Below the pieces are notes generated by a model. The model was given only the letters and a program-made list of their open reading frames with translations, ran no database searches and was not told the origin of the DNA. A stretch of DNA of 64,000 bases. Origin: Spiribacter salinus M19-40 (GTDB lineage Bacteria > Pseudomonadota > Gammaproteobacteria > Nitrococcales > Nitrococcaceae). Numbering within the stretch: position 1 is the stretch's first letter; every line of letters starts with the position of its first letter. This document shows, piece after piece, positions 22,257-27,460 of this stretch. Both the position numbers and the translations under genes were made by a program. Location of the stretch: the NCBI RefSeq assembly GCF_000319575.2, contig NC_021291.1:1426001-1490000 (forward strand). Reading direction: 5' to 3'.

Positions 22257-23537
22257 ATGCCTGTCGTCTGTCTGGGTCTTAATCACAAATCAGCGCCCCT
22301 GGCCGTCCGGGAGCGTGTGGTCTTCTCCGCCGAGCGGCTCGATCCCGCGCTCGCGGCGCTGGCTGCGCGGCCGGGCGTGCGCGAGGCGGCGGTCGTGTCC
22401 ACGTGCAACCGCACGGAGATTTATGCCGTCCTGGCCCCGGAGGCGACGCCGGCCATCCTGCGGCGCTGGCTCGAGAGTGAACAGGCGCTGGCGGGCGATG
22501 AGCTCGCAGCGCACCTCTACAGCCTCGAAGGCCGTGAGGCGATTCATCATCTCCTGCGAGTCGCCTCGGGTCTCGACTCCCTGGTGCTCGGTGAACCTCA
22601 GATCCTGGGGCAAGCCAAGCTTGCCTATCACTCGGCGGCGCGGGCCGGCCTGCTCGGTCAAATCCTGCAACGCCTTTTCCAGCACGCGTTTTCTGTCGCC
22701 AAACGCGTGCGCACCGAGACCGACATCGGCGCCCATCCGGTCTCGGTGGCCTACGCTGCGGTGACTTTGGCCCGACAAATCTTCGGCCAGCTAGAGGCTT
22801 GCCAGGGGCTGCTGATCGGTGCCGGCGAGATGATCGAACTCACAGCCCGACATTTCCATGAACAGGGCCTGCGCGGGCTGGTCGTTGCCAACCGCAGCCT
22901 GGAGCGCGCCCAGCGGGTCGCCGGATTCTGTGACGGGCACGGCATCGGTCTTGACGCACTTGAAGACCAGGTGGCCCGCGCGGATATCATCGTCGCTTGC
23001 ACGGGCAGCGATACCCCCGTACTCACCCGAGAGACCCTGAAACGGGTCTTCAAAAGCCGCCGCCATCAGCCCCTGTTCATGGTGGATCTCGGCGTGCCAC
23101 GCGATATTGAACCCAGCGTTGAGACACTGCCCGATGTCTACCTGTACACGGTCGACGACCTGCGGGGCGTCATCGAACAAAGCCGGCGCTCTCGGGCGGC
23201 GGCCGCGGATGACGCCGAGGCAATCATCGAAAACCAGACCGATGCCTTCATGGACTGGATGCGCACCCTGAACGCTGTGGGCGCGATCCGGCGCTACCGC
23301 CAACATGCCGAGCGCCAGCGTGACGAGGCCCTCGCCCAGGCTCGCCGCCAGCTCGCCGCCGGGCATACCCCCGAAGCGGTCATCGAGCAGCTCGGCCACC
23401 GCCTGACGCGCAAGCTACTGCACACCCCAACCATGGGGCTGCGCGAGGCCGCGCGCGAGGGCGACGCCCGAGTGATTCGGGACAGCCACCGCCTGCTCGG
23501 CCTGGATGATGACGAGGAACGCGATACCGATGAATGA
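22257..23537 (+). CDS. hemA: Glutamyl-tRNA reductase
   Basis: Reduces glutamyl-tRNA to glutamate-1-semialdehyde with NADPH, the first step of C5-pathway tetrapyrrole synthesis. 426 residues: N-terminal [14 protein letters not shown]; catalytic Cys in [11 protein letters not shown]; the [12 protein letters not shown] motif; NADP-binding [13 protein letters not shown]; and a C-terminal dimerisation domain. Start chosen at the ATG at 22257. The stop overlaps prfA by 8 bases. Confidence 0.97.
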
Positions 23538-24618
23538 CAACCTGCGCCTCAAGCTCGAAAAGCTGGTCGAGCGCCACGAAGAAATTGAAGGCCTGCTCGC
23601 AGACCCCGCCGTGATCGGCGACTCCGAGCGCTTCACCCGCCTCTCCCGCGAGTACGCCCGGCTCGAACCGGTCCGCCGCAACATGGCCTTACTGGCGAGT
23701 GCTGAGGCGGACCTGGCCGCCGCCGAAGACATGCTGAACGAAGGGGATGCAGCCATGCGGGCGCTGGGCGAGGACGAGGCCAGCGACGCCCGGGCGCGCC
23801 TGAGCGAACTTGAGGCCGAACTCAAGGTGCTCATGCTGCCCGAAGATCCCAACGATGCCCGCAACACCTTTCTGGAGATCCGCGCTGGCACCGGGGGCGA
23901 TGAAGCCGCCCTGTTCGCGGGTGATCTGCTGCGCATGTACCTGCGCTATGCCGAGCAACAGGGCTGGCGCACCGAGATCATCAGCGAGAGCTCCGGGGAG
24001 CAGGGCGGGTACCGGGAAGTCGTGGCCCGAATTGCCGGCGACCGCGTGTACTCGCGGCTGAAATTTGAATCCGGCGCCCACCGGGTCCAGCGGGTTCCCG
24101 CAACGGAATCCCAGGGCCGCATCCATACCTCGGCCTGCACCGTGGCCATCCTGCCCGAGGCCGCCGAGATGGACGAAATCGACATCAATACCGCCGATCT
24201 TCGCATCGATACGTTTCGAGCCTCTGGCGCCGGGGGGCAGCACATTAACAAAACGGACTCCGCTGTCCGTGTCACCCATTTGCCAACCGGTGTGGTGGTG
24301 GAGTGCCAGGACGAGCGCTCACAGCACAAGAACCGTGCCAAGGCGCTGGGGCTATTACAGGCGCGCTTGATGGATCAGCAGCGGGAGGCGGCAGCAACCG
24401 AACGCACAGAGGAACGGCGACTGCTGGTGGGGAGTGGTGATCGCTCGGAGCGCATCCGGACCTACAACTTCCCACAGGGTCGAGTGACGGACCATCGCAT
24501 CAATCTGACTCTCTACAAGCTAGAGGACATCCTGATGGGACAACTTGATCAGGTGGTCGAGCCGCTTGTCAGCGAGTATCAAGCAGATCAGCTCGCTGCC
24601 CTGGCCGCCGAGAGCTAG
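23530..24618 (+). CDS. prfA: Peptide chain release factor 1
   Basis: Terminates translation at UAG and UAA. 362 residues; contains the GGQ motif in [17 protein letters not shown], whose Gln is the PrmC methylation target, and the stop-codon-reading [13 protein letters not shown] region, where P-A-T takes the place of the usual PxT tripeptide. Start ATG 23530 overlaps hemA. Unlike the usual hemA-prfA-prmC order, prmC does not follow directly; it is 2 kb away beyond an inverted dksA-aroG pair. Confidence 0.98.
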
Positions 24619-25144: not shown

Positions 25145-26218
25145 TCAGCCCGCCCTCGCCACCAGCGGTTGCGCCAGTCGCGTCGCCGCGTCACGGAGCA
25201 CGCGCTCAGTGGTGTCCCAGTCAATGCAGCCATCCGTAATGGACACGCCATACTCCAGCTGGGACAGATCCTCGGTGAGTTTCTGCGCACCCCAGCCCAA
25301 GTGACTCTCCATCATGACCGCCACGATCGAGCGATTGCCCTCGATCACCTGATTGACCAGATTGTCCATGACCAGCGGCTGCAGGGCCGGGTCCTTGCTG
25401 GAGTTGGCATGACTGCAGTCCACCATCAGCCGTGTCGACAGGCCCGCATCATCCAGCGCCTTTTCGCACAGCGCGATGCTCACGGAGTCGTAATTCGGCT
25501 GATTACCGCCCCGCAGCACCACGTGGCCGTAGCGATTGCCGGCCGTGCGAATGACAGCGGACCGTCCATCGGCCTGAGTCACGCCCAGGAAACTGTGAGG
25601 GTTCGCTGCCGAGCGCATCGCGTTGATCGCCACATCCAGGCTGCCATCGGTACCGTTCTTGAATCCAACAGCCGTGGACAGCCCGCTGGCCATTTCCCGA
25701 TGCGTCTGCGACTCGGTGGTGCGTGCCCCGATGGCCGTCCAGCTAATCAGATCGCCGAGGTACTGCGGTGTAATCGGATCCAGCGCCTCGGTCCCCGCCG
25801 GCAGGCCAATTTCCGCCAGATGCAACAGAAGCGACCGGGCACGCGTCAGCCCTTCTTCGATATCGAAGCTGTCATCCATATAAGGGTCGTTAATAAGCCC
25901 CTTCCATCCAACGGTCGTCCGCGGCTTTTCGAAGTAGACGCGCATAACGATCACCAGCTCTCCGGCCAACTCGTCGTGGAGGGCCTTCAGTCGGCTGGCA
26001 TAGTCCTTTGCCGCATCGACATCATGAATCGAGCACGGCCCCACCACGACCAAAAGCCGAGGGTCATCGCCGTCCAGAATCGCCTGAACCGCTTTACGCC
26101 CCGACTCGACGGTCTTCCGCGCCTGGTCGGACAAAGGCAACCGAGACTTGAGCTCCGCCGGCGGCGGCAGGGGCTCTTGTGCTACCACGTTCAAGTTATC
26201 AATTGGCTCGTTTTCCAT
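25145..26218 (-). CDS. 3-deoxy-7-phosphoheptulonate synthase, class I (AroF/G/H type)
   Basis: Condenses PEP with erythrose 4-phosphate, the first step of the shikimate pathway. 357 residues. Motifs: VVVGPCSIHDVDAAKDYA (metal-ligand Cys), RVYFEKPRTTVGWKGLINDP, GARTTESQTHREMASGLS, VDCSHANSSKD and the C-terminal SITDGCIDWDTTE. Which aromatic amino acid feeds back on it cannot be read reliably from sequence, so I do not choose among aroF, aroG and aroH. It lacks a convincing ribosome-binding site of its own and is preceded by a tiny ORF with a good one. Confidence 0.95.
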   Translation of the reverse strand: MENEPIDNLNVVAQEPLPPPAELKSRLPLSDQARKTVESGRKAVQAILDGDDPRLLVVVGPCSIHDVDAAKDYASRLKALHDELAGELVIVMRVYFEKPRTTVGWKGLINDPYMDDSFDIEEGLTRARSLLLHLAEIGLPAGTEALDPITPQYLGDLISWTAIGARTTESQTHREMASGLSTAVGFKNGTDGSLDVAINAMRSAANPHSFLGVTQADGRSAVIRTAGNRYGHVVLRGGNQPNYDSVSIALCEKALDDAGLSTRLMVDCSHANSSKDPALQPLVMDNLVNQVIEGNRSIVAVMMESHLGWGAQKLTEDLSQLEYGVSITDGCIDWDTTERVLRDAATRLAQPLVARAG

Positions 26219-26354: not shown

Positions 26355-26621
26355 ATGGCGATCGACCGCAAATTACTGGATGTCCTGTGCTGCCCTGTCA
26401 CCAAACAGCCGGTCAGGGTGCTAAAGCGCACCGAACTCAAGGCGCTGAATGAGCGCATCGACGGCGGCGAGGTCCGCTATCAGGACGACAGCCCGGTCGA
26501 CACCCCGCTTGAAGCGGGTTTGATTACCGCGAACGAAGAGCGGATCTACCGCGTCGATGATGGCATTCCGGTCATGCTTGAAGACCGCGCCATCAACCTG
26601 CGGGCCGCGGGACTGAAGTGA
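26355..26621 (+). CDS. Trm112-family protein
   Basis: 88 residues of the Trm112/YcaR family: N-terminal RKLLDVLCCPVTKQPVRVL, a middle insertion rich in charged residues, and the C-terminal RIYRVDDGIPVMLEDRAINL typical of the family. The paired Cys knuckles of eukaryotic Trm112 are not present. The start is the ATG at 26355 with AAGGA ten bases upstream; in-frame ATGs at 26337 and 26283 give longer versions. Its stop overlaps the GTG of prmC (GTGA). In E. coli ycaR lies between lpxK and kdsB, so this location next to a release-factor methyltransferase is notable: eukaryotic and archaeal Trm112 activates such enzymes. Confidence 0.85.
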   Translation: MAIDRKLLDVLCCPVTKQPVRVLKRTELKALNERIDGGEVRYQDDSPVDTPLEAGLITANEERIYRVDDGIPVMLEDRAINLRAAGLK

Positions 26622-27460
26622 CAACCCCGCCAACACTGGCGGAGGCACGGCGCCGCGCCGGACAAGAGCTGGCCCCGGTGAGTGCTAGCCCGGCCCTCGA
26701 CGCAGAATGTCTGCTGGCTTGTGCCACGGGCCTGGCTCGGACGCGATTCCGCGCCCACCCCGAAGAAGTGCTAAAAGCGCCCGCCTGGGCCCGTTTCCAG
26801 CACCTGGTTGAGCGGCGTCTGTCCGGCGAGCCAGTGGCGCATCTCACCGGCCACCGCGGTTTCATGGATTTCGAGCTTCGGGTGGGCCCGGCGGTGCTCA
26901 TCCCTCGACCGGAGACCGAACATCTGGTCGAGGCCGCTCTGGAGCGATCTGCCGCGTCGGTGCTTGACCTGGGGTGTGGCAGCGGCTGCGTGGCCATTGC
27001 GCTGGCCCGCGCGTGGCCAGAGGCCGACATCGATGCAGTCGATGTCAGTGAGACTGCCCTCTCGGTGGCCCGAGCGAACGCCCGGGAACTCGGAGCGGAT
27101 CAGATCCGATTTCATGCCGGTGACTGGTATGCCCCCGTGAGCCGTCAGCGTTACAGCCTAATTGTCTCCAACCCGCCTTATATTGGGGCAGATGAGGCAG
27201 AACCGGACACCGGCGATCTTCGCTTCGAACCCCGGCAGGCTCTGATCGCTGGCCCCACCGGCCTGGAGGCGATCCGCATCGTCATTCAGGGCGCGCCAGC
27301 GCAGCTTCATCCTGGCGGACAACTCTGGCTTGAGCACGGATACCGCCAGGGCCCGTCGGTTCGTGAGGAACTCGCCGCGGCAGGCTTTACCGCCATTGAG
27401 ACACGACACGATCTGGCGGGCCACGAGCGCATCAGCGGCGGCAGACTCGAGGCAAGCTGA
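26618..27460 (+). CDS. prmC: Release factor glutamine methyltransferase
   Basis: Methylates the Gln of the GGQ motif in RF1 and RF2, raising termination efficiency. 280 residues: N-terminal helical substrate domain (about 1-75), PVAHLTGHRGFMDFELRV, SAM-binding VLDLGCGSGCVAIALA, and the catalytic NPPY at residues 185-188 (SNPPYIGADE). Begins at GTG 26618 overlapping the Trm112-like stop by four bases; its own stop shares one base with the moeB ATG. The usual neighbour prfA is 2 kb upstream. Confidence 0.96.
   Translation: MTTPPTLAEARRRAGQELAPVSASPALDAECLLACATGLARTRFRAHPEEVLKAPAWARFQHLVERRLSGEPVAHLTGHRGFMDFELRVGPAVLIPRPETEHLVEAALERSAASVLDLGCGSGCVAIALARAWPEADIDAVDVSETALSVARANARELGADQIRFHAGDWYAPVSRQRYSLIVSNPPYIGADEAEPDTGDLRFEPRQALIAGPTGLEAIRIVIQGAPAQLHPGGQLWLEHGYRQGPSVREELAAAGFTAIETRHDLAGHERISGGRLEAS

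Follow-up and report, generated by a model that had tools for sequence, protein, structure and literature searches.

Throughout the order to which Spiribacter salinus M19-40 belongs, a gene for a long-form Trm112 protein stands directly upstream of prmC and in the same direction (49 of the 49 loci with downstream sequence). We favour, with a probability of about 0.45, the explanation that the two genes form a co-expressed translation-modification operon in which Trm112 has its partner in trans, over both rivals, namely a direct partnership of Trm112 with PrmC and an inherited gene neighbourhood.

Gene order and products of the locus

The window, i.e. the whole stretch of 64,000 nucleotides that was analysed, holds the following features around the pair:

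23506 to 24618, forward strand: prfA, release factor 1 with a GAGGQ motif (named from sequence)
25145 to 26218, reverse strand: DAHP synthase gene (aroG-like), divergent (named from sequence)
26355 to 26621, forward strand: Trm112-family ORF of 88 aa, long form (XF2673/2K5R-like subfamily; assigned by sequence and PF03966 profile)
26618 to 26621, forward strand: GTGA, 4 bases shared by the end of the Trm112 ORF (stop codon) and the beginning of prmC (start codon)
26618 to 27460, forward strand: prmC, peptide chain release factor N5-glutamine methyltransferase, GTG start, 280 aa
27460 to 28206, forward strand: moeB/thiF-like adenylyltransferase gene, whose start overlaps the prmC stop by 1 base

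The ORF at 26355-26621 (+) translates into the 88 amino acids MAIDRKLLDVLCCPVTK...DDGIPVMLEDRAINLRAAGLK. The four-base overlap with the prmC GTG, already reported in the preliminary description, was confirmed; it contains TGA as the Trm112 stop codon and recurs in most loci of the window's genus. While hemA, prfA and prmC all lie inside 6 kb, the locus differs from a hemA-prfA-prmC operon in that dksA and aroG intervene between prfA and prmC, which are ~2 kb apart, and Trm112 is coupled to prmC instead. The prfA-prmC order is the usual arrangement elsewhere (PMC3098086), and in the other gammaproteobacteria that we compared, prfA usually lies immediately 5' of prmC.

The preliminary description had further assigned the small protein to the Trm112 family and called it longer than YcaR, with an insertion, and both statements hold. 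The protein matches Pfam Trm112p (PF03966) with 33.7 bits at a cut-off of 22, and its gene is the sole PF03966 match found by a whole-genome profile search of the 1.74-Mb genome. Among aligned relatives two forms occur, a short, YcaR-like one of ~60 residues and a long one of 84-93 residues with ~27 more residues in its central part. In the window protein this insertion spans about residues 26-52, and in the structure predicted for the L008 readthrough product (see below) the insertion holds a helix (residues 25-36). Because the insertion is present in every long family member, we regard it as a trait of the subfamily. Eukaryotic Trm112 also has a helical domain in the central region, while bacterial forms are said to be without it (PMC5372719). 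XF2673 from Xylella fastidiosa (PDB 2K5R), a solved, uncharacterised long Trm112-like protein, matches the window protein over 84 residues (E 3.4e-29) and has the same central insertion. A CxxC pair, including the C-terminal CxxC of a zinc knuckle, is absent from all 74 distinct long Trm112 sequences. Since Cys and/or Asp are reported as metal ligands of bacterial Trm112 (PMC5372719), metal binding by the long form is possible without CxxC. A phylum-wide sample showed the long form in the window's class only. Judged by its sequence, the window protein is a member of a long, Cys-poor gammaproteobacterial Trm112 subfamily.

YcaR (UPF0434) has the N-terminal KLLDIL.CP and C-terminal Y.V.DGIPVML motifs in common with the window protein but differs in its length of ~60 residues, its lack of the insertion and its gene position (lpxK-ycaR-kdsB). 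Against the YcaR equivalog NF008806 the window protein reached 21.1 bits, below the cut-off of 126. In L030, L041 and L042 the short form is flanked by an lpxK-like and a kdsB-like gene. In the window genome ycaR is missing from this place, where the preliminary description had located it as a rule: lpxK and kdsB overlap directly (L181, G000:C1 around 848376-849290; kdsB named from sequence), and a genome search for a second, short YcaR found none.

The downstream gene is a genuine prmC, as had been claimed. Its product reached 272 bits against TIGR03534 (cut-off 199.1), carries a PrmC_N domain (68 bits) and contains the motifs IPRP(E/D)TE and SNPPYI. By its sequence, it is a complete and canonical PrmC with the N-terminal domain and the release-factor-contact motifs kept, and PrmC is described as active alone (review PMC5372719). 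Its score against the HemK2/MTQ2 profile TIGR00537 was 51.6, below the cut-off of 87. An Mtq2-like enzyme as alternative was dismissed, as the 16 genomes searched gave no Mtq2/HemK2-type match (TIGR00537) above cut-off. In the DPHL motif after NPPY (27194-27202 in the window, prmC residues 193-195) the His is usually lost in the PrmCs of the order; it is kept in 18 of 25 unpaired gammaproteobacterial PrmCs.

Extent of the pairing and variation of its flanks

The order comprises five families, 17 genera and 54 genomes. Long Trm112 was found in 50 of these genomes, with all 17 genera represented. Fifty-one loci were read for their gene neighbourhood, two of which stop at a contig end, leaving the 49 testable loci given above. 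The spacing between Trm112 and prmC ranges from overlap up to 215 bases. A restriction to this strain, which the preliminary description had named as refuting its proposal, is therefore not what we found: the pairing across the whole order dismisses a strain-specific accident and likewise a chance overlap. The same pair occurs on seven extra contigs from uncultured Spiribacter, Aquisalimonas and other Ectothiorhodospiraceae, some of them possibly from the same species, and in family f105, which belongs to another small order and is represented by two genomes. Searches of the literature, incomplete in their coverage, returned no report of a bacterial Trm112-prmC pair, and a search for viral relatives found none. 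The bin G396 contains two Trm112-prmC loci on separate contigs (L105, L106), by duplication or because the bin is mixed.

Trm112 was missing from four genomes of the order (G371, G382, G395, G404). In three of the four a full-length PrmC match is absent as well, with scores no higher than those of paralogues; in G371 the PrmC match is partial (208 bits, positions 2-222) and just above the cut-off. True loss of Trm112 was set aside, since PrmC is also missing or partial. Because full-length PrmC was not found, the locus is most likely unassembled in these genomes, G371 being less clear.

The neighbours of the pair vary. The gene moeB adjoins prmC in 43 of 55 testable loci, and of 59 loci, 30 have aroG and 25 a ClpX-like AAA+ gene upstream of Trm112. 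The ClpX-like protein has ~410 aa with a C4 zinc finger, AAA_2 and ClpB_D2-small, and is divergent; examples are L016:86-1345 (-) and L023:2-1108 (-), and in the window's genus the gene is not found at this position. Trm112 and prmC stay together in L134 and L107 despite rearrangement relative to their neighbours, and in L114 despite a separation of 215 bases. In a tree, the order's paired PrmCs cluster together (91/81) and those of f105 fall outside this cluster; the pairing may stem from one event.

In nine other families (18 genomes) long Trm112 also occurs apart from prmC, which lies elsewhere and often after prfA; one of these genomes (G290) yielded only a PrmC paralogue. Because nine families have long Trm112 with no prmC nearby, its function appears to be independent of linkage to prmC.

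A proposed co-expressed operon and possible partners of Trm112

We propose that the product of the small gene is a bacterial Trm112 of the long form, and that it most likely acts as beta-sheet docking partner for at least one class I SAM-dependent methyltransferase. Its gene would have come to occupy a fixed place immediately 5' of prmC, the usual site of prfA, in the ancestor of the order. Both genes would be translated from one mRNA, probably with reinitiation at GTGA, and this coupling would co-express two translation-modification genes. PrmC would be an ordinary, self-sufficient enzyme, and the main partner of Trm112 would be another methyltransferase acting in trans.

Natural fusions agree with a general role of Trm112 in docking to class I methyltransferases. 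L136:2799-3875 (genome G321) encodes a protein of 358 residues in which a Methyltransf_11 domain is fused to a segment resembling long Trm112, and in L176 and L177 shorter Trm112-like segments are joined with Methyltransf_11 domains; Pfam gives Trm112p for L176, at a score just under the cut-off, but not for L177. The L136 fusion might serve as a guide to the true type of Trm112 partner. A first look through the 16 Methyltransf_11 matches of the window genome, PrmC included, yielded no clear candidate partner.

In support of the operon, the pairing is strict while the flanks vary, prfA-prmC is the usual order elsewhere, long Trm112 is also found unlinked from prmC, the L136 fusion exists, PrmC is canonical and mostly polar where N6AMT1 would contact Trm112, and the readthrough model (both described below) does not dock Trm112 with confidence. 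Against it stand the trans partner that was not found and the fact that strict pairing is equally expected if PrmC itself is the direct partner; moreover, the comparison of contact faces draws on a single human structure, and even the L177 fusion has a face that is just partly hydrophobic.

Possible direct contact or common descent, and meaning of the coupling

The idea of a direct partnership, in which long Trm112 binds PrmC and stabilises it or tunes its binding of SAM or the release factor, appears rather doubtful to us. It would make the pair a bacterial counterpart of Mtq2-Trm112, possibly using another surface. The analogy is close in substrate: in eukaryotes, with an archaeal counterpart, the Trm112 partner Mtq2 (N6AMT1) methylates the same GGQ glutamine of the release factor as PrmC (PMC6796863). 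The strict pairing with overlap throughout the order, the same pair in the second order (f105), the lack of an Mtq2-type match in the 16 genomes and differences between paired and unpaired PrmCs at some positions, such as the lost His of DPHL, all speak for it. However, long Trm112 is unlinked from prmC in nine families, and while Mtq2 is without the large PrmC N-terminal domain and requires Trm112, the PrmC of the window is complete with this domain.

The N6AMT1 residues that touch Trm112 (PMC6796863) form a hydrophobic face which receives Trm112 strand beta-4. The N6AMT1 sequence was confirmed against PDB chains. An automatic N6AMT1-PrmC alignment was discarded because it opened a spurious gap in the helix that follows beta-2, and the contact positions were located in PrmC by hand, with the conserved Asp residues behind strands 2 and 3 as anchors. 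In this hand-set comparison with one human structure, N6AMT1 I48, L72, M74, A83, L87, P99, V100 and I101 correspond to S, D, D, L, R, F, H and A in the window PrmC, which is thus mostly polar where N6AMT1 meets Trm112 with hydrophobic residues. Paired (51) and unpaired (25) PrmCs alike carry polar residues where N6AMT1 has I48, L72 and L87. At the position of M74 the paired PrmCs, with mostly Thr or Asp, are less hydrophobic than the unpaired ones, with mostly Val, Thr or Leu; at that of I101 the difference is slightly opposite. In the L177 fusion, the methyltransferase's own face is just partly hydrophobic.

In L008 (Aquisalimonas) both genes lie in one frame with a TAA between them, and the natural readthrough product was modelled with AlphaFold2. 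The model, built from a shallow, unpaired alignment with no positive control, had a mean pLDDT of 89.6 and a pTM of 0.73; PrmC alone gave a pTM of 0.87. By our own length-scaled estimate, a pTM of ~0.71 would be expected for an unplaced Trm112 and >0.85 for a well-placed one. DSSP assigned neither an extension of strand 3 nor extra strand pairing in this shallow-alignment model, and its best PDB match was E. coli PrmC (2B3T). In the model, Trm112 does not appear to be confidently docked on PrmC. Because of the alignment and the missing control, we take this as mild evidence against a complex.

That adjacency reflects a complex of Trm112 with PrmC, as suggested in the preliminary description, is therefore not supported, in view of the canonical PrmC, its mostly polar face, the model and the unlinked occurrence in nine families. 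Since the tests that speak against the complex are indirect, the idea is weakened by them, and a physical pair is possible, if somewhat disfavoured. In its narrower form, long-form Trm112 as a dedicated PrmC partner within the order, with a docking surface unlike that of Mtq2, it would be the first bacterial complex of Trm112 with a release-factor methyltransferase; we consider this unlikely.

Less probable again is an inherited neighbourhood, in which an ancestral cluster (prfA, dksA, aroG, the ClpX-like gene, Trm112, prmC and moeB) placed Trm112 before prmC while the products are functionally unlinked. Separation would be costly because the translation of prmC would now depend on the overlap. 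The single clade of the order's paired PrmCs, with a pairing that may be a single event, and the cluster of the same genes in f105 are consistent with such descent, but the pair outlasts the rearrangements in L134 and L107 and the gap in L114 while its flanks swap.

The co-expressed operon with a partner of Trm112 in trans thus remains the explanation that we favour. A review describes bacterial Trm112 proteins as being of unknown function (PMC5372719), and the order-wide Trm112-prmC coupling supplies a specific, testable partner hypothesis for one Trm112 subfamily. It ties the bacterial Trm112 family to GGQ methylation, the process in which Trm112 acts in eukaryotes.
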